Of a stretch of 43,628 nucleotides of DNA, positions 2,958 through 38,565 are shown in pieces. The DNA is from an uncultured Bacilli bacterium. Lineage in GTDB: Bacteria; Bacillota_I; Bacilli_A; RF39; UBA660. The stretch covers positions 1 to 43,628 of the forward strand of contig CANQFJ010000012.1 in NCBI GenBank assembly GCA_947598485.1, given 5' to 3'. The notes under the pieces were generated by a model. The model was not told the origin of the DNA. It saw only the letters and a program-made list of their open reading frames with translations, and did no database searches. The stretch's first letter is position 1, and each line of letters starts with the position of its first letter. Made by a program: the position numbers and the translations under genes.

Positions 2958-3848
2958 TTGGTGACAAAAGAGTATAAAAGACGATTTGGTGATCGAAAAT
3001 ATGCCAGAAGAGTAAGAAACTTAAAGGGAATGGAACAAATAAACATAGATTTAAAACCTAACAGATCTGTAAGCTATGTTTATATAAACCAAAAGATGGA
3101 TGTTACTAATTTAGCAAAATACTTAGAAAAGAAAAAAGCTGAAGGAATACATATAACATATTTCCACGCTTTCTTAGCAGCCATAGGAAGAACTTACCAC
3201 TTAAGGCCAAGACTTAATTACTTTATTTCAAATCATCATCTTTATGAGCATAATGAAGTAGCTATATCATTTGTTGCTAAAGTTGCATTTAATGAACATT
3301 CTGAAGAAATGATGACGATTATTCCTATAGAAGAAAAAGATAACATATTCACTATAAGTGAGAAAGTCACTAATATGGTATCTCAATTTAGAGATAAAAA
3401 AATTGAAAAAGAAGGAGCAAATTCCGCGATTGATATAGTTGGTAAACTACCTAATATTATCAGAGTACCTTTAGTAAACTTTCTTAAGTTCTTAGATAAG
3501 AAGGGACATTTACCATCATCATTAATAAAAGATAATCTTTACTATAGCAGTATCATTGTATCAAACCTAGGCTCTATAAAATGTGGAGCTATTCATCATA
3601 ATATGAATGACTTTGGTTGCTGCTCAGCAATTGCTACTATGGGTGAAGTTAAAGATGAAGAAATAATTGACGAAAAAGGGGAAAAACATATAAGAAAAAT
3701 TTGTGAATTTGGTATTAATTTAGATGAAAGAATAGGCGATGGCTATTATTTTTCTAAATCAATACATTTATTACAATATTTATTTGATAACCCTGAGTTA
3801 TTAGAGGAGGATTCTAATGCGCAAGTCAAAATTGAAGAAATTAGATAA
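2958..3848 (+). CDS. E2-like acyltransferase (2-oxoacid dehydrogenase catalytic-domain family)
   Basis: The protein has 296 residues. The fold family is that of E2 catalytic domains and chloramphenicol acetyltransferase, recognised from HAFLAAIGRTYHLRPRLNYF (about 74-93), IIVSNLGSI (about 197-205) and the C-terminal DERIGDG (256-262). There is no lipoyl domain and no E1/E3-binding domain, so it is not a subunit of a pyruvate dehydrogenase complex. In the family motif DHRxxDG the His is the general base; here the matching residue is Glu257. It is the first gene of an operon and its end overlaps the downstream ligase by 32 bp, so an acyl-transfer role linked to the ligase and the PlsC enzymes is likely. 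The start is a TTG (or the GTG next to it): GAGGAG lies 7 nt upstream, and the nearby ATG at 2954 is in another frame and stops quickly. Confidence 0.75.
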   Translation: MVTKEYKRRFGDRKYARRVRNLKGMEQINIDLKPNRSVSYVYINQKMDVTNLAKYLEKKKAEGIHITYFHAFLAAIGRTYHLRPRLNYFISNHHLYEHNEVAISFVAKVAFNEHSEEMMTIIPIEEKDNIFTISEKVTNMVSQFRDKKIEKEGANSAIDIVGKLPNIIRVPLVNFLKFLDKKGHLPSSLIKDNLYYSSIIVSNLGSIKCGAIHHNMNDFGCCSAIATMGEVKDEEIIDEKGEKHIRKICEFGINLDERIGDGYYFSKSIHLLQYLFDNPELLEEDSNAQVKIEEIR

Positions 3849-5562
3849 AGAATTAAGACCTTGGTTAGATTATTACAAAGAAGATGGCATAGAGGCTAAT
3901 CTAGAATATCCCGAATATTCTCTTTCCGATATGCTTTTTGAAGCCGCGGAAAAGTATCCTAACAACATGGCTTTTTATTACTATGGAAAAAGAGTTAATT
4001 TCCATGATTTTGCTGAAAAAATAAAAATGGCTGCAAAGGCTTTAAAAAACTATGGTGTTAAAGAAAATGATAAAATAACTGTATGTATGCCTAATACGCC
4101 TGAAGCTATTATTATTTTTTATGCCATAAATATGGTTGGAGCTATAGCTAATATGGTTCATCCCCTTTCTAGTGAAAAAGAGCTTGAATATTACGTTAAT
4201 TTAGTTGATAGTAAATATATCTTTGTTATCGATGCTGTTTTTGAAAAAGTATACAAGTTAAAAGACAGCACTAATTTGAAAAAAATAATTGTGGCTAGAG
4301 TGTCGGAAGAAATGAATGTCGTTTTATCCGGAGGATATTGGCTTTCTAAAGGAAGAAAGATAACTATTCCTAAAAATGATCCTAAAGTAGTTATGTGGAG
4401 TGAATTTATTTATAATTCACGTAATTATCAAGGTGATATTAAAGAAAATAGAACCGCTTATGACCCTGCTGTTATTCTTTATAGTGGTGGTACTACAGGA
4501 AATCCTAAGGGAATACTTCTTTCTAATTTAGCATTTAATGCAATGGGGATGGGCGCCAAGGCAATGATTAAGCAAATTGTTCCGGGGGCTACGGCTTTAT
4601 CTATACTTCCCGTCTTTCATGGCTTTGGCCTAGCAGTTAACATTCATACACCTTTAGTTAATGGCATGGGATGTGTATTAGTACCACAATTTGAAAAGAA
4701 AAAATTTGGCGATTTAATAAGAAAAACTCAACCTTCGTTTATAATTGGTGTTCCAACATTATACGAAGCTTTAATAAGTGCCAAATTTGGCCCTAGAGAT
4801 CTTGAGTGTGTTAAAGCTACTATTTGTGGAGGAGATGCTCTTAATAAAACATTAAGGGATAAAGTCAATGCCTTTTTAGAAGAACATGGCTCTGATGCGC
4901 GCATTAGGGTAGGCTATGGTCTTACAGAAGCTACAGCAGCTTGTTGCTTAAGCCCTGAAAATGCTTTTGATGATGGTATTATTGGTGCACCATTTCCTGA
5001 TGATTATATTAAGATTGTTAAACCAGGTACTCATGAAAGAGCCGAAGTAGGCGAAGATGGCGAAATATGTGTAAGTGGACCTTCGGTTATGATGGGCTAT
5101 TACAATAATGATAAAGAAACTATGCAAACATTAAGATATCATGAAGATGGTAAACTATGGCTTCATACAGGTGATGTTGGTGTTTTAAAGGAAGATGGTT
5201 TCTTCTATTTCTCACAAAGAATTAAGAGAATGATTATCTCAAGTGGTTATAATGTATATCCAACTTATATCGAAGGAATAATAAATTCCCATTATGCGGT
5301 TTTAACTTCTACCGTTATAGGAATACCTCATCCTTATAAAGGACAAGTAGCTAAGGCTTTTATCGTTTTAAAGGAAGGATTTAAACCTACAAAACAAATT
5401 GAAAAAGAAATAAAAGAACTATGTATTCAAAATGTTGCTGTTTATGCTCTACCACATGAATATGAGTTTAGAGATAAACTACCTCAAACATTAGTAGGTA
5501 AAGTAGCATTTAGAGAACTTGAAAAGGAAGAAAAAGCTAAACGTGAAAAGAAGCAAAAGTAA
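3817..5562 (+). CDS. AMP-dependent acyl ligase (long-chain acyl-CoA/acyl-AMP ligase family)
   Basis: The enzyme has 581 residues and belongs to the adenylate-forming superfamily. It activates a carboxylic acid with ATP to an acyl-AMP and normally passes it to CoA or a carrier. Motifs in order are YSGGTTGNPKG (P-loop, about residue 222), GYGLTEA (A5), HTGDVGVLKEDGFFYF (A7), RIKRMIISSGYNVYP (A8) and the catalytic Lys in GKVAFREL near the C-terminus. Length and motif set are full. The start ATG has AGAGGAGG 8 nt upstream, within the end of the previous gene. It is a close paralogue of the ligase at 36841. The flanking PlsC genes suggest a fatty acid substrate destined for a lipid; the exact acid cannot be told from sequence. 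Confidence 0.9.
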   Translation: MRKSKLKKLDKELRPWLDYYKEDGIEANLEYPEYSLSDMLFEAAEKYPNNMAFYYYGKRVNFHDFAEKIKMAAKALKNYGVKENDKITVCMPNTPEAIIIFYAINMVGAIANMVHPLSSEKELEYYVNLVDSKYIFVIDAVFEKVYKLKDSTNLKKIIVARVSEEMNVVLSGGYWLSKGRKITIPKNDPKVVMWSEFIYNSRNYQGDIKENRTAYDPAVILYSGGTTGNPKGILLSNLAFNAMGMGAKAMIKQIVPGATALSILPVFHGFGLAVNIHTPLVNGMGCVLVPQFEKKKFGDLIRKTQPSFIIGVPTLYEALISAKFGPRDLECVKATICGGDALNKTLRDKVNAFLEEHGSDARIRVGYGLTEATAACCLSPENAFDDGIIGAPFPDDYIKIVKPGTHERAEVGEDGEICVSGPSVMMGYYNNDKETMQTLRYHEDGKLWLHTGDVGVLKEDGFFYFSQRIKRMIISSGYNVYPTYIEGIINSHYAVLTSTVIGIPHPYKGQVAKAFIVLKEGFKPTKQIEKEIKELCIQNVAVYALPHEYEFRDKLPQTLVGKVAFRELEKEEKAKREKKQK

Positions 5563-6163
5563 AGATTGGGTAGTTCCTGATATAGGTTATTTAATATTAA
5601 GACCTATACTACGTTTATACGTTTTTATTACGATGCATCCTAAACTAATTAATAAAGATAATATTCCCAAAAAAGGGGGTGTTATTTTAGCAGGTACGCA
5701 TACTTCTAAAAATGATTTTATGGTAGTAGGCTCAGGAACCTTACGTGCTGTCCATTTTTTAACTAAAAAAGAGCTTATGGATATAAAGGGATTAAAATGG
5801 CTATTTAGATTTGCGGGCTTAATTAGAGTAGATCGTTCACGTAGCAATCCTGAAGCTAAAAAAGAAGCCATAGATGCTCTTAATGCCGATAAAGTTGTAT
5901 GTGTATTTCCTGAGGGAACTATCAATAAAACAGATGATCCTATTATGAAATTTAAAGCGGGTGCTGTTTATTTTGCTATTCAAACGGGCAAACCTATAGT
6001 TCCTTTTGCTATCACTGGTAAGCCTAAAGCATTTAAATATGGTAGCAAGATAATATATGGTAAACCATATTACGTAAAAACCGATGATGTTGAAAAAGAA
6101 GTTAAAGTCTTAGAGGACAAAGTAGTTGAGTTAATTAAGGAGATTAGTAGTAATGAAAAGTAA
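5543..6163 (+). CDS. plsC: PlsC-family 1-acylglycerol-3-phosphate acyltransferase (copy 1)
   Basis: The protein has about 206 residues. It has the acyltransferase HX4D motif (His53-Asp58, within GTHTSKNDF) and the glycerophosphate-binding FPEGT (from residue 122), followed by KFKAGAVYFA. Enzymes of this family move an acyl group to lysophosphatidic acid at the inner membrane face. The start is uncertain. I prefer GTG at 5543, with GGAAG 13 nt upstream. A TTG at 5519 would extend it by 8 residues but has no ribosome site. It overlaps the ligase by 20 bp and the next gene by 11 bp, so the four genes are co-transcribed. Confidence 0.88.
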   Translation: MKRSKSKDWVVPDIGYLILRPILRLYVFITMHPKLINKDNIPKKGGVILAGTHTSKNDFMVVGSGTLRAVHFLTKKELMDIKGLKWLFRFAGLIRVDRSRSNPEAKKEAIDALNADKVVCVFPEGTINKTDDPIMKFKAGAVYFAIQTGKPIVPFAITGKPKAFKYGSKIIYGKPYYVKTDDVEKEVKVLEDKVVELIKEISSNEK

Positions 6164-6755
6164 GCAAAAAGAACCACATAAAGGTGCATATGTCTTTTTT
6201 AAGTCTATTTTAGGGGTAATATTTAAGATATATTATCGACCTAAATTTGTTAATAAAAACCTTATTCCTAAAGAAGGACCCATAATAGTATGTGGAAATC
6301 ATATTCATATTTTAGATCAATGTTTTCCCATTTTATGCACTAAGAGAATGCTTCATTATATGGCTAAAAAAGAGTATTTTGAAGGAAAATTTGCTTGGTT
6401 TTTCAAATCAGTTGGCTGCATAAGTGTAAACCGTAGTATTCATGATCAAGATGCGAAGGATGCTGCCCTAGAAGTACTACAAAACGGCTATGCTTTAGGG
6501 ATATTTCCTGAAGGTACAAGAAATAAAACCGATGAACCTTTGCTTCCTTTTAAAATGGGCGCTGTATCCTTAGCTCAAAAAACTGGAGCTACAATCGTGC
6601 CTTATGCTTTAACAGGTAAATATAAGTTTTGGAACGGGCATTTAAAAGCTACTTTTTTAGAGCCGTTTAAAGTTGGACCTAATGATGATTTAGAAAAGGC
6701 TAATGAGCATCTTCGTAATTTAATTTTGAGTGAATTACAAAAAAAAGAAGATTAG
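6153..6755 (+). CDS. plsC: PlsC-family acyltransferase (copy 2)
   Basis: The protein has 200 residues and is a diverged paralogue of the preceding gene. The HX4D motif is His50 to Asp55 (GNHIHILDQC), and FPEGTRNKT begins at residue 118. AAGGAGA is placed 8 nt before the ATG inside the end of copy 1. Two PlsC enzymes in a row with a ligase could act on different acyl chains, or one may use a non-phosphatidic acceptor. The gene ends 4 bp into the convergent murE-like gene (shared bases 6752-6755), leaving no room for a separate terminator. Confidence 0.9.
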   Translation: MKSKQKEPHKGAYVFFKSILGVIFKIYYRPKFVNKNLIPKEGPIIVCGNHIHILDQCFPILCTKRMLHYMAKKEYFEGKFAWFFKSVGCISVNRSIHDQDAKDAALEVLQNGYALGIFPEGTRNKTDEPLLPFKMGAVSLAQKTGATIVPYALTGKYKFWNGHLKATFLEPFKVGPNDDLEKANEHLRNLILSELQKKED

Positions 6756-8098
6756 CTTAAATATTTAAGTGCTTCTTCTTTATCATCAAAATGATATTTT
6801 TTATTATTTATTATTTGATAATCTTCATGGCCTTTGCCAAGAATTAATAAGTAATCATTTTTCTTAAGGAGTTTAACTCCTTTTTTTATGGCATTAGCTC
6901 GATCTTCGATTATTTCAAAGTTTTTATTTGTTAAGTCCTTAGTAATATCATTTAATATTTCTTTTGGGTCTTCATCCCGGGGGTTATCACTTGTAAATAT
7001 AACGTAATCAGAATTTTTTACTGCAATTTCACCCATGATAGGTCGCTTACTTTTATCACGATTACCTCCACAGCCTATGATAGTTATAATTCTATTTTTT
7101 TTAAGCTCATTATATGTTATTAAGGTTTCTTTAACTGACTCAGGGCTATGGGCATAATCAATTACAATATATCCTTTGGAAGATTTAATAAGTTCATTTC
7201 TTCCTTTAATAGGCTTTATTAAATTAGTAATATTAATTAATTCATGTAAATCAAAACCAAGACTAAGCATTATACCTAAAGCCATTAAATAATTATAAAT
7301 GTTGTATTTACCTACTAAAGGAATCGATACAGTATAATGTGAATAATTGTATGTGAAGTTAATAATCATACTCGATGCATATAAAGTATAGTCAAATAAA
7401 TCTAAATCTCCTTTAGTTCCCACGGTTAAATAATAGTTAGCCTTTTTCTTAAAACTTTTGACTCCATCACTATCATTATTTAGGACAATTGGGCCTTTTA
7501 AATATTTTAAAATCTTTAACTTTGTATTTAAATAATTTGTCATAGTTTTATGGAAATCTAAATGATCTTGTGAAAGGTTAGTAAAAGCCGCGACACTAAA
7601 AGTTAACCCTTTAATTCTTTTAAGAGCTATTGAATGAGAAGAAACTTCCATTACTATATGAGTAATGCCTTCTTGCTTTAAGAGTTTAAATATTTTATTT
7701 AACGTAACTATATCGGGAGTGGTATTATCTAGTTTTAAAACTTGATTATTATAATATAATCCCAACGTGCCAATATAAGCACATTGTACTTTGAGCAAGC
7801 AAAGCATTTGATATACTAATAGGGCAGTAGTAGACTTCCCTTTAGTACCGGTTATACCTATAATTGTAAAATCTTTGGTTAATTTCTTATTTTCTTTGCC
7901 AACTTTATTAATTAAATACTTATAAGAATCTTTAACACATTTATAATTTTTTATCTTAAGTTTTTTTTGACCTATAACTTTACTAGCACCTTTATTAATA
8001 GCATCTTCAATAAAGTCATGGCCATCATAATATTTTCCTTTAAGAGCTACAAAGATATCACCGACTTTAACTTTCTGCGAATTGGTTTCATAATTCAT
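6752..8098 (-). CDS. murE: Mur ligase, MurE-type (DNPR motif)
   Basis: The ligase has 448 residues and adds the third amino acid to UDP-MurNAc-L-Ala-D-Glu in the cytoplasm. It has the N-terminal UDP-binding domain (KGKYYDGHDFI), the ATP loop GITGTKGKSTT, the middle-domain VMEVSSHSIALKRI and NLSQDHLDFH, and the C-terminal substrate motif DNPRDEDP at residues 371-378, followed by LGKGHEDYQ. DNPR at this place is the signature of meso-diaminopimelate-adding enzymes. AGAGGTG lies 6 nt before the ATG. It follows the paralogue at 9494 with a gap of 37 bp, so both are probably one transcript. The ATP loop has Lys where most MurE proteins have Asn (GTNGKTT). Confidence 0.88.
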   Translation of the reverse strand: MNYETNSQKVKVGDIFVALKGKYYDGHDFIEDAINKGASKVIGQKKLKIKNYKCVKDSYKYLINKVGKENKKLTKDFTIIGITGTKGKSTTALLVYQMLCLLKVQCAYIGTLGLYYNNQVLKLDNTTPDIVTLNKIFKLLKQEGITHIVMEVSSHSIALKRIKGLTFSVAAFTNLSQDHLDFHKTMTNYLNTKLKILKYLKGPIVLNNDSDGVKSFKKKANYYLTVGTKGDLDLFDYTLYASSMIINFTYNYSHYTVSIPLVGKYNIYNYLMALGIMLSLGFDLHELINITNLIKPIKGRNELIKSSKGYIVIDYAHSPESVKETLITYNELKKNRIITIIGCGGNRDKSKRPIMGEIAVKNSDYVIFTSDNPRDEDPKEILNDITKDLTNKNFEIIEDRANAIKKGVKLLKKNDYLLILGKGHEDYQIINNKKYHFDDKEEALKYLS

Positions 8099-8135: not shown

Positions 8136-9494
8136 TTATTTTATGCTTTTATTTATTAACTCTTGGACAAAATTTAAATCATTATGTTTAATTCTTTTGT
8201 CTTTAATAATTATTTCATTTTCATGTCCTTTTCCCAAAATAAGAAGTGTATCGTTTTCTTTTAACATTCCAAAAGCTTTAGTTATAGCTTTTTTTCGATC
8301 TATTATAACTTCATATTTATCTGTAGTGATTCCCTTTAATGTATCGTTAATAATTTGCATTTCATCTTCATCATGGGGATCATCGTCTGTGAGAATAAAA
8401 TAATCAGCATACTTTTGGGCCATTTTTCCCATGATAGGTCTTTTTTGTCGATCACGATTACCCGGACAGCCAAAGACCACGTATTTTTTTCCCTTAGTAA
8501 TGTGTGCGGCAGATGTTAGGACCTGTTTCATTCCATCTGGTGTATGGGCATAGTCAATAATTATTTTATTAGTTTTATAGTCTAAAATATTAATTCTACC
8601 GTTGGGTTTCTCTAAATCAGCATAATTATTATTAATATCATCTATTTTAATTCCTAAGGATATAAGTATTCCTATGGATGCCATAATGTTATAAATATTA
8701 TATTTTCCAAATAAATGCGACTTTAAATTATATTCTTTATTTTGATAAGTATATGTAAAACATGTAAACATTTCATCTGTTTTAGTACATTTTATATCGC
8801 TATTTGTAAAGCCATATGTAATGTTATTTTTAGTTAGGAAATTCTTACTATATTTATCATCTATATTAACAATACTTACGCCATTTTCTTTTAAATTTTT
8901 AAATAAAATTTGTTTAGCTTCCATATATTTAGTCATTGTTTTATGATAGTCCAAGTGATCATGCGTAAGATTAGTAAATACGGCGATATCAAACTTGAGG
9001 CCTGCTAAACGATTTTCTACTAAACCAATACTACTTGCTTCAACAATAACTATTTGACATTTATTATCAATAGCCTTTAGCAAATAATTATATAGGCTTA
9101 AAACATCAGGCGTCGTATTAAGTGTTTTTTCAAAGTTGTCATTATAGTAAAAACCAATAGTGCCAATATATGCACAATTTATGTTAAGTTTACGAAGTAG
9201 TTCATAAGTCATATATGCCGTAGTGGTTTTACCATTTGTTCCCGTTATAGCTACTAATTTAATTTTGTTTATTTTTTCCGCATATTCTTGCACTAATAAG
9301 TTTTCTAAATATTCATTAGTATCTTTAACATTAATAGTTTTAACACTATAAGTTTTGTTATTTGAACAAATTATACATGATGCTCCATTTTCTATAGCTT
9401 TATCGATATAGTCATGCCCATCTACAGTATGACCTTTGATTGCTATAAATGTATCACCTTTTTGAACAAAACGCGAGTCAGTTTTAATATTCAT
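8136..9494 (-). CDS. murE: Mur ligase, MurE-type (DDPH motif)
   Basis: The protein has 452 residues with the chosen start and is the upstream member of a tandem MurE pair. It shows KGHTVDGHDYI, AITGTNGKTTT, IVEASSIGLVENRL, NLTHDHLDYH and LGKGHENE. The substrate-pocket motif at residues 371-374 is DDPH rather than DNPR, so the Arg that reads meso-diaminopimelate is missing. Such a change fits an L-lysine-type or other diamino acid substrate. I set the start at ATG 9494 because AAGAAAGG precedes it, its N-terminus lines up with that of the paralogue, and the probable -10 box at 9520-9525 overlaps the ATG at 9521, which would leave that codon outside the mRNA. Confidence 0.88.
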   Translation of the reverse strand: MNIKTDSRFVQKGDTFIAIKGHTVDGHDYIDKAIENGASCIICSNNKTYSVKTINVKDTNEYLENLLVQEYAEKINKIKLVAITGTNGKTTTAYMTYELLRKLNINCAYIGTIGFYYNDNFEKTLNTTPDVLSLYNYLLKAIDNKCQIVIVEASSIGLVENRLAGLKFDIAVFTNLTHDHLDYHKTMTKYMEAKQILFKNLKENGVSIVNIDDKYSKNFLTKNNITYGFTNSDIKCTKTDEMFTCFTYTYQNKEYNLKSHLFGKYNIYNIMASIGILISLGIKIDDINNNYADLEKPNGRINILDYKTNKIIIDYAHTPDGMKQVLTSAAHITKGKKYVVFGCPGNRDRQKRPIMGKMAQKYADYFILTDDDPHDEDEMQIINDTLKGITTDKYEVIIDRKKAITKAFGMLKENDTLLILGKGHENEIIIKDKRIKHNDLNFVQELINKSIK

Positions 9495-9519
9495 ATTAAG
9501 GTCGCCTTTCTTGCAATTC

Positions 9520-9548
9520 ATTATATATTATAATTTTGTAAAATTCAA
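9520..9548 (-). promoter_or_regulatory. Promoter of the murE pair
   Basis: On the minus strand TTGAAT (9543-9548) and TATAAT (9520-9525) are separated by exactly 17 bp. Transcription would begin near 9513, which supports the downstream start at 9494. Confidence 0.75.
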
Positions 9549-36796: not shown

Positions 36797-36824
36797 ACAT
36801 TTGTAATTTGTGCAACAAATGTAT
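36795..36824. promoter_or_regulatory. Probable TetR operator
   Basis: ATACATTTGT (36795-36804) and ACAAATGTAT (36815-36824) form a perfect 10-bp inverted repeat with a 10-nt spacer. It covers the end of the -10 box and the transcription start, so a bound repressor would stop initiation. Confidence 0.75.
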
Positions 36825-36840
36825 AAAAAGGAGAATGATT

Positions 36841-38565
36841 ATGAAATCACTTACAAATATATTTAGAAAAGCTAAGAAAGAATCTTTATGGCATAAATAT
36901 TATCCTAAAGATAAAGACAATATAGTGGTACCCAATATATCTATTTATGAATATCTTGACTCCGAAGTTAAAAACAGAAATAGTATTGCCATAAATTATT
37001 TTAATTACAAGATATCCTATAGTGATCTTTTCAGGGAAATTGATATATGTGCTAAATCTCTTCGTAGCCAAGGCATAAGACCTGGTGATGTTGTAACAAT
37101 ATGTATGCCTAATACTCCTGAAGCGGTAATAAGTTTTTATGCTGTTAATAAAATCGGAGCTATAGCTAATATGATTCACCCTTTATCCGCGGAAGAAGAG
37201 ATTAAACAATCTTTAATCAGTACTAAAAGTGTTTTAGTTATAACCATTAATTTAGCCTATGATAAGATGAAAAATATATTAAGCCAAACTGCTGTTTACA
37301 AAGTAGTAATTGTCTCAGCCTCAGATTCAATGCCCAAGCTACTTAAAATAGGCTATAACCTTACCCAAGGAAGAAAAATAGCCACCCCAAGGAAAAATGA
37401 AGAATTTATCTATTGGCATGAATTCATGGAAAAGGGCAAGAAATATTATGAAGATGTTTTAGTTAAAACAACTAAAGATCAAGATGCGGTTATTCTTCAT
37501 AGTGGAGGTACAACGGGAACCCCAAAGAATATTGTTTTAACCAATGGTAATGTTAATGCTGTTGTTGAGCAAGTTAAGATAATGGTTCCTAATATTACCA
37601 TAGATGATAAAATGTTATCTATTTTGCCTTTGTTTCACTGTTTTGGCCTTGTAGTGTGTGTTCATTGTCCTCTTTCTTTAAATGCTACGGCTATCTTAAT
37701 TCCCCAATTTGATGCTAAACGTTTTGATAAATTATTAGTAAAATATAATCCTACAGTTCTCCCTGGAGTTCCAACTTTATTTGAAGCTTTAGTTACTAAT
37801 AGTCATATGAATAATGTTAGTCTTAAAAATCTTAAATATGTTATATCGGGAGGCGATACTTTGCCACCTGCCAAAAATGAAATGGTTAATAAGTTTTTAC
37901 AAGAACATGGTTGTAATACTCATGTTATCCAAGGTTATGGCATGACCGAAACTACGGGACCGGTTACTTTAAGTGCGTTGGGAGCCGATGTATCAGGAAG
38001 TGTTGGGATTCCTTTACCCGGAAATAATGTTAAGATAATTGATGTTGATACTAAAGAAGAGTGTGAAATAGGTAAAACAGGCGAAATCTGTATAAGTGGT
38101 CCTACGGTTATGAAAGGATATCTTGATAATGTTAAAGAAACTAATGAAATGTTAGCTAAAGATAAAGAGGGCAATATCTGGATTCATACTGGTGATTTAG
38201 GTTATATTAATGAAGATGGAATTCTTTTCTTTGCTCAAAGACTTAAAAGAATGCTTATTGTATCAGGCTATAATGTCTATCCTTCACATATTGAAGATGT
38301 TTTATTAAAGCATCCTTATGTCTTAAACTGTGGGGTAATTGGTGTACCACATCCCTATAAAGTACAAGTTCCTAAAGCTTATATTGTTTTAAGCCCTGAG
38401 ATTAAAGACTGTGCTAAAGTAAGAAATGAAATTAAAGAATATTGTGAAAAAAATTTAGCTAAATATATGCTTCCCAAAGAATATGTATATAGAGAGTCAC
38501 TTCCTAAAACGATGATTGGTAAAGTTAACTATCGGGAACTGGAAGAAGAAAATAAGACTAACTAA
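36841..38565 (+). CDS. AMP-dependent acyl ligase (paralogue 2)
   Basis: The enzyme has 574 residues and is a clear paralogue of the ligase at 3817 (shared VCMPNTPEA-like segment, GAIANMIHPLSAEEE, HSGGTTGTPK, GYGMTETTGP, HTGDLGYINEDG, RLKRMLIVSGYNVYPSHIE and a C-terminal GKVNYREL with the catalytic Lys). It activates a carboxylic acid to its acyl-AMP and then to a thioester. The start ATG 36841 has AAAAGGAG at 7-8 nt; upstream in-frame codons lie in the operator. It is probably under the divergent TetR. In contrast to the first ligase locus, no acyltransferase gene follows. Confidence 0.9.
   Translation: MKSLTNIFRKAKKESLWHKYYPKDKDNIVVPNISIYEYLDSEVKNRNSIAINYFNYKISYSDLFREIDICAKSLRSQGIRPGDVVTICMPNTPEAVISFYAVNKIGAIANMIHPLSAEEEIKQSLISTKSVLVITINLAYDKMKNILSQTAVYKVVIVSASDSMPKLLKIGYNLTQGRKIATPRKNEEFIYWHEFMEKGKKYYEDVLVKTTKDQDAVILHSGGTTGTPKNIVLTNGNVNAVVEQVKIMVPNITIDDKMLSILPLFHCFGLVVCVHCPLSLNATAILIPQFDAKRFDKLLVKYNPTVLPGVPTLFEALVTNSHMNNVSLKNLKYVISGGDTLPPAKNEMVNKFLQEHGCNTHVIQGYGMTETTGPVTLSALGADVSGSVGIPLPGNNVKIIDVDTKEECEIGKTGEICISGPTVMKGYLDNVKETNEMLAKDKEGNIWIHTGDLGYINEDGILFFAQRLKRMLIVSGYNVYPSHIEDVLLKHPYVLNCGVIGVPHPYKVQVPKAYIVLSPEIKDCAKVRNEIKEYCEKNLAKYMLPKEYVYRESLPKTMIGKVNYRELEEENKTN

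Follow-up and report, generated by a model that had tools for sequence, protein, structure and literature searches.

In 2-oxoacid dehydrogenase E2 components and chloramphenicol acetyltransferase (CAT), two acyltransferases of similar fold, the classic general base is a histidine of the motif DHRxxDG or its equivalent. The E. coli E2o variant His375Trp retains 59% of its activity and an acid-base role of this residue has been ruled out (PMC5986005), so that a His-less site need not be dead, and the title of Lewendon 1994 (cited in PMC5986005 and PMC12549896) gives a general-base role to Glu at this position in CAT. As for the supply of acyl chains to membranes, a 2019 study found the gut Bacilli order RF39 to be without fatty acid synthesis, and proposed for it a Fak-type route (PMC6784871). 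Here we analysed a 43,628-nucleotide stretch of DNA (the window; contig CANQFJ010000012.1) from an uncultured Bacilli bacterium (draft genome of 1.26 Mb, 97% complete), and describe an operon of four plus-strand genes at positions 2958-6755. These encode an E2-like protein (hereafter E2L), an AMP-binding ligase and two PF01553 (PlsC-type) acyltransferases, the successive frames overlapping by 32, 44 and 11 nucleotides. E2L carries Glu in place of the catalytic His, as do all of the relatives examined, and we propose that the operon is an acyl-CoA-based unit for phospholipid assembly.

A stand-alone E2-like family with Glu at the catalytic His position

E2L (2958..3848, + strand; 296 amino acids, starting at TTG 2958 or GTG 2961) matched PF00198 alone (48.4 bits; cut-off 23) in a Pfam scan of its full length, in which lipoyl and subunit-binding domains were absent; its genome encodes no other PF00198 protein. 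Residues 256-262 read DERIGDG, and alignment with E2s places Glu257 (codon GAA, 3726..3728, + strand) at the His position of DHRxxDG. Of 60 close genomes, 17 contained a relative, as did 74 of the 296 genomes of the class, a few of these via weak partial matches; outside the host phylum, where sampling was sparse, a single relative was retrieved (Vescimonas, 36% identity, on a plasmid-like replicon of Clostridia).

The position of Glu257 is occupied by Glu in all 69 distinct E2L sequences, at identities down to ~25%, within the motif DER..DG in 65 cases and within DEG..DG, DER..TG (Vescimonas), DERIAEG and DERIGEG in one case each. The DG Asp, which has a structural role in E2 and CAT, gives way to Thr or Glu in three of the 69 and is hence more variable than Glu257 itself. 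True E2s of the same class that were retrieved alongside E2L (L126 and L127) have kept the His, as DHRIIDG. Also present in 69 of 69 sequences is His214 (codon 3597..3599, + strand), a new histidine lying 12 residues past Ser202. The residues invariant in a 43-sequence alignment comprise Asn87, Asp180, His214, Asp256, Glu257, Asp261, Gly262, Tyr264 and Pro279, and the Ser202 position holds Ser or Thr in 40 of these sequences and Val in three. All 43 aligned members matched PF00198; the Pfam CAT model matched two, weakly.

The original prediction, made from the DNA letters and their translations, had described four overlapping or nearly overlapping genes, the first of them without a lipoyl domain and with Glu257 in place of the general-base His, and had named an alignment of relatives as the check. 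All of these descriptions hold, and a chance mutation of the His is rejected by the 69 conserved glutamates: Glu replaces His in this family by rule, not accident. Judged by its sequences, E2L is an overlooked stand-alone protein family in which the classic catalytic His has been swapped for Glu without exception among the members examined. No published description of such a family was found in a partial literature search.

An AlphaFold2 model built from the alignment reached a mean pLDDT (predicted local distance difference test) of 90.7 and a pTM (predicted template modelling score) of 0.89. Its best matches among solved structures were E2 cores (VIA Z ~21; 2.4-2.8 Å over ~200 residues), followed by CAT 1q23 (Z 18.2), the comparison being one of monomer folds. 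According to the alignment and the secondary structure of the model (DSSP), E2L has an insertion of ~40 extra residues relative to E2s (approximately residues 146-196; 3393..3545, + strand), predicted to form helices at 154-162 and 166-181 and containing a conserved LP...LD. The helical moments of these helices are moderate (0.2-0.5), and in the model they are compatible with, though not proof of, contact with a membrane or an acyl chain.

Predicted active site of E2L

Ser202 falls at the position of the oxyanion residue (Thr323 of E2o; Ser148 of CAT). In the pocket of S. aureus CAT, Ser142 and Leu154, among other residues of one protomer, face the catalytic His that the adjacent protomer contributes (PMC12549896). 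The spacing in the two proteins is alike, since Leu154 lies at Ser142 + 12 and His214 at Ser202 + 12, and this match suggests that His214 may face the Glu257 of the neighbouring protomer. From sequence and model, E2L is best read as a probable acyltransferase with Glu257 as its base, tied in this lineage to the ligase.

The ligase and the two PlsC-type acyltransferases

The second gene (3817..5562, + strand; 581 amino acids) encodes an enzyme resembling fatty acid-CoA ligases, which matched PF00501 (250 bits) and PF13193 (58 bits) and, by inspection, has the P-loop, YGLTEA and C-terminal Lys regions. Its best NCBIfam matches were models of long-chain-fatty-acid-CoA ligases, below their cut-offs, and no equivalog cut-off was reached among the matches listed. 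The tree gathers 16 E2L-linked ligases of the bacterial family (which include that of the operon) with one unlinked ligase (G010) in a single clade (support 99/97), separate from the ligases of PlsC operons that have no E2L; the remaining E2L-linked ligase (L027) pairs with a ligase from one of those E2L-free operons. The host genome contains ~8 AMP-binding matches. One of the ligase-like genes (36808-38565, + strand; 585 amino acids) lies elsewhere in the window, belongs to a separate ligase clade and adjoins a TetR-like gene.

Both PlsC-type proteins matched PF01553 and have an HX4D motif and an intact FPEGT. The third gene of the operon (5519..6163, + strand, its start likewise approximate; 214 amino acids; 93 bits; HX4D as THTSKND) belongs to what we call group B, and the fourth (6153..6755, + strand; 200 amino acids; 85 bits; HX4D as NHIHILD) to group A, these labels having been assigned from the motifs ahead of tree building. 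The PlsCs of such operons sorted accordingly in the tree, with group A as one clade (99/98) and group B requiring two changes, and each two-PlsC operon placed in it contained one A and one B. Neither group falls within the canonical PlsC clade of the class (99/100), and the two proteins of the operon are not orthologous to canonical PlsC.

Conservation of gene order

Within its bacterial family the E2L gene adjoins the ligase gene at 17 of 28 loci, the frames mostly overlapping, and the pair extends to other genera; beyond the family, this adjacency was seen at one locus in each of two other families. The gene encoding E2L is found in the remaining families among housekeeping genes or ABC transporters, and several of these genomes have no AMP-binding ligase at all. 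The full order, with E2L, ligase and PlsC genes together, is confined to the genus, some members of which have one PlsC instead of two. A ligase with two diverged PlsC paralogues recurs without E2L. Directly downstream of the E2L gene of one relative lies a gene for a CAT-like protein with an intact HHGFCDG (L025:2146-2766, + strand).

The association of E2L with the ligase that had been predicted is thus borne out, both by these 17 loci and by the grouping of nearly all linked ligases of the family in their own clade. The four-gene order, for which a search in other genomes had been proposed, is kept as a unit in the genus and not elsewhere, where E2L sits among housekeeping genes. The suggestion that E2L takes acyl groups from the ligase fails as a general function, and we reject the ligase as its invariable acyl donor, given the E2L genomes in which no AMP-binding ligase occurs.

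Lipid genes across the bacterial family

We compared 37 genomes of this bacterial family (that of the window included) with 23 other genomes of the class. Profile hidden Markov model (HMM) searches detected FakA in 0 of 37 family genomes versus 22 of 23 others, PlsX in 0 of 37 versus 21 of 23 and PlsY in 0 of 37 versus 22 of 23 (Fisher p < 1e-13 for each of the three). CdsA is kept in 31 of the 37, and consumption of phosphatidic acid should therefore persist. The acyl carrier protein (ACP) was detected in 13 family genomes and undetected in 24, and FabF was found in five, including that of the window. Ligase and PlsC genes are neighbours in 18 of the 37 genomes (chance expectation ~1.2), and 11 of these 18 have two PlsCs there. 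The family resembles the published description of RF39 (PMC6784871). A partial literature search found no published lineage without Fak, PlsX and PlsY.

Two further clusters of the host genome bear on lipid synthesis. One (L188; G000:C1:64000-83000) is a fatty acid synthesis cluster with AccA/D-, AccC-, FabH-, FabD- and FabF-like genes, and has a ligase, a glycosyltransferase and a sulfatase-fold protein at its end. The other (L189; G000:C16:18000-36000) encodes a carrier protein, an ACPS-type transferase, an AMP-binding ligase, two GT8 glycosyltransferases and a PlsC-type protein, and from this gene content it looks like a locus for the acylation of a glycolipid or polymer.

Proposed function and alternatives

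The explanation that we favour, with a probability of about one half, is that the operon is an acyl-CoA-based phospholipid-assembly unit replacing a lost Fak-PlsX-PlsY route, in which E2L is an acyltransferase using Glu257 as its base. The ligase, judged by its protein family, would activate fatty acids to acyl-CoA, coenzyme A (CoA) being the obvious carrier in those relatives that lack a detectable ACP. The two diverged PlsC-type enzymes would then add acyl chains one after the other to the two positions of glycerol 3-phosphate, yielding phosphatidic acid; this sequence of steps is suggested by the pairing of the two enzymes, by the motifs that both retain intact and by the lack of PlsY. E2L would be a peripheral, probably trimeric acyltransferase of the CAT/E2 fold, with Glu257 as general base and His214 joining the same inter-subunit site, and may move an acyl group from a thioester (here the acyl-CoA made by the ligase, elsewhere another carrier) to a lipid or envelope acceptor. 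Most simply, the ligase and the PlsC pair would stand in for Fak-PlsX-PlsY-PlsC and give ordinary phosphatidic acid. The unusual membrane lipid of the original prediction becomes unneeded, as the family-wide loss of FakA, PlsX and PlsY makes ordinary phosphatidic acid synthesis the simpler role for this pair. More tentatively, E2L could represent a new catalytic class of the CAT/E2 superfamily, its site rebuilt on two invariant residues, a Glu where the His used to be and a His of the facing protomer, working in an acyl-CoA-dependent lipid operon that replaced the nearly class-universal FakA/PlsX/PlsY route.

Several observations weigh against the favoured explanation. Many genomes of the family keep the ligase-PlsC unit but have no E2L, and outside the family E2L is found where FakA, PlsX and PlsY are present and an AMP-binding ligase is missing; being absent from most family members and present alongside FakA, PlsX and PlsY elsewhere, E2L cannot be indispensable for the synthesis of phosphatidic acid. 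We likewise reject E2L as a missing glycerol 3-phosphate acyltransferase in any general sense, as most PlsY-less genomes of the family lack it and PlsY-bearing genomes of others possess it. Neither PlsC nor PlsX and PlsY was detected in ten of the 37 family genomes (G004, G010, G011, G013, G014, G015, G026, G029, G035 and G036), and FakA was also undetected by the same searches in these ten, eight of which keep CdsA; they imply another source of phosphatidic acid in the family, which our account does not explain. The host genome itself holds its fatty acid synthesis cluster with a ligase of its own, so that the donor need not be an exogenous fatty acid, as well as several other ligases and PlsCs. 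The gene absences rest on HMM searches of draft genomes; the same profiles succeed in other families and the absences hold across all 37 genomes. Finally, between Ser202 and Gly229 E2L has a few more residues than E2 and CAT, which makes the register uncertain, and we infer, rather than observe, catalysis by E2L, its trimer formation and the active-site placing of His214.

If E2L performed no chemistry, its E2/CAT trimer and channel might serve to bind an acyl chain or acyl-CoA and pass this on to the PlsCs, or to anchor the ligase at the membrane. His-less relatives of E2 such as E3BP serve as structural parts, a precedent that fits the missing classic base, the translational coupling of E2L with the ligase, the hydrophobic character of the helical insertion and the Val found at the catalytic Ser position in three of 43 sequences. 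We nevertheless consider such a pseudoenzyme somewhat unlikely, since all 69 sequences have both Glu257 and His214, a stricter conservation than that of the structural Asp of DG and unusual for a dead site, and since the title of Lewendon 1994 points to Glu being able to act as a base at this position of CAT. Also rejected was a remnant of a pyruvate dehydrogenase (PDH) complex: E2L has no lipoyl domain, the genome encodes no other E2, and no E1 or E3 was recognised nearby in the neighbourhood survey.

E2L and the PlsCs might instead acylate a glycolipid, lipoteichoic acid or lysophospholipid, the operon making or remodelling a special envelope lipid in place of bulk phosphatidic acid. Across families E2L is not bound to phosphatidic acid synthesis, and in some relatives it lies near a diacylglycerol-kinase-like gene or opposite a PAP2 gene; the further PlsCs and ligases of the host genome, including the ACP, GT8 and PlsC cluster, could cover bulk synthesis. 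This is nonetheless an unlikely role for the operon, as the unit of a ligase with an A and a B PlsC is found repeatedly in a family in which none of FakA, PlsX and PlsY was detected. Thioester exchange between acyl-CoA and another thiol carrier, i.e. E2 chemistry minus the lipoyl arm, would suit E2L in that its closest relatives in fold and sequence perform transthioesterification, but we judge it improbable: no lipoyl domain is encoded beside E2L, and E2L occurs in genomes without detectable ACP (G008, G021, G026 and G028), which also makes ACP an unlikely partner. We therefore retain phospholipid assembly from acyl-CoA, with E2L as a Glu-based acyltransferase, as the preferred explanation.

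Should this explanation be correct, E2L would be a natural case of the His-to-Glu exchange made artificially in CAT, allowing a test of what the superfamily His is needed for, and the operon would show how fatty acids could reach the membrane in a large uncultured group of gut bacteria that is mostly without fatty acid synthesis. With FakA, PlsX and PlsY all undetected, this bacterial family is at odds with the Fak-type route suggested for the order RF39, and the ligase with two PlsCs is a compact candidate for its replacement.

Genomic setting of the operon

The operon is flanked by a divergent gene (1883-2773, - strand) and a convergent Mur-ligase gene (6752-8098, - strand). The latter and its neighbour (8136-9521, - strand) are tandem MurE-like paralogues, which are also kept beside the operon in other genomes of the genus. 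Promoter-like matches were looked for upstream of the operon and were no better than chance.

Comparison with known systems

E2L shares with the E2s of 2-oxoacid dehydrogenases its family (PF00198) and fold, a Ser/Thr at the oxyanion position, the DxRxxDG frame and a C-terminal NP.LL helix. It differs from them in the invariant Glu that replaces the His, the invariant His214, the helical insertion of ~40 residues and the lack of lipoyl and subunit-binding domains, and in being the sole PF00198 gene of its genome; no PDH-type E1 or E3 genes were recognised beside it in the neighbourhood survey, no genome-wide search for E1 and E3 having been made. With CAT it has in common the fold (1q23), a single small domain without a lipoyl arm and an active-site Ser, whereas His195 of CAT is Glu in E2L and HHxxxDG has become DERxxDG. 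The two PlsC-type proteins resemble PlsC, the 1-acyl-glycerol 3-phosphate acyltransferase (PF01553), in size and in their HX4D and FPEG motifs, but they belong to groups A and B outside the canonical clade and are paired with a ligase. The proposed task of the ligase and PlsC unit, the incorporation of exogenous fatty acids into phospholipid, is that of the Fak-PlsX-PlsY route of Firmicutes suggested for RF39 (PMC6784871), of which FakA, PlsX and PlsY were undetected in all 37 genomes of the family.

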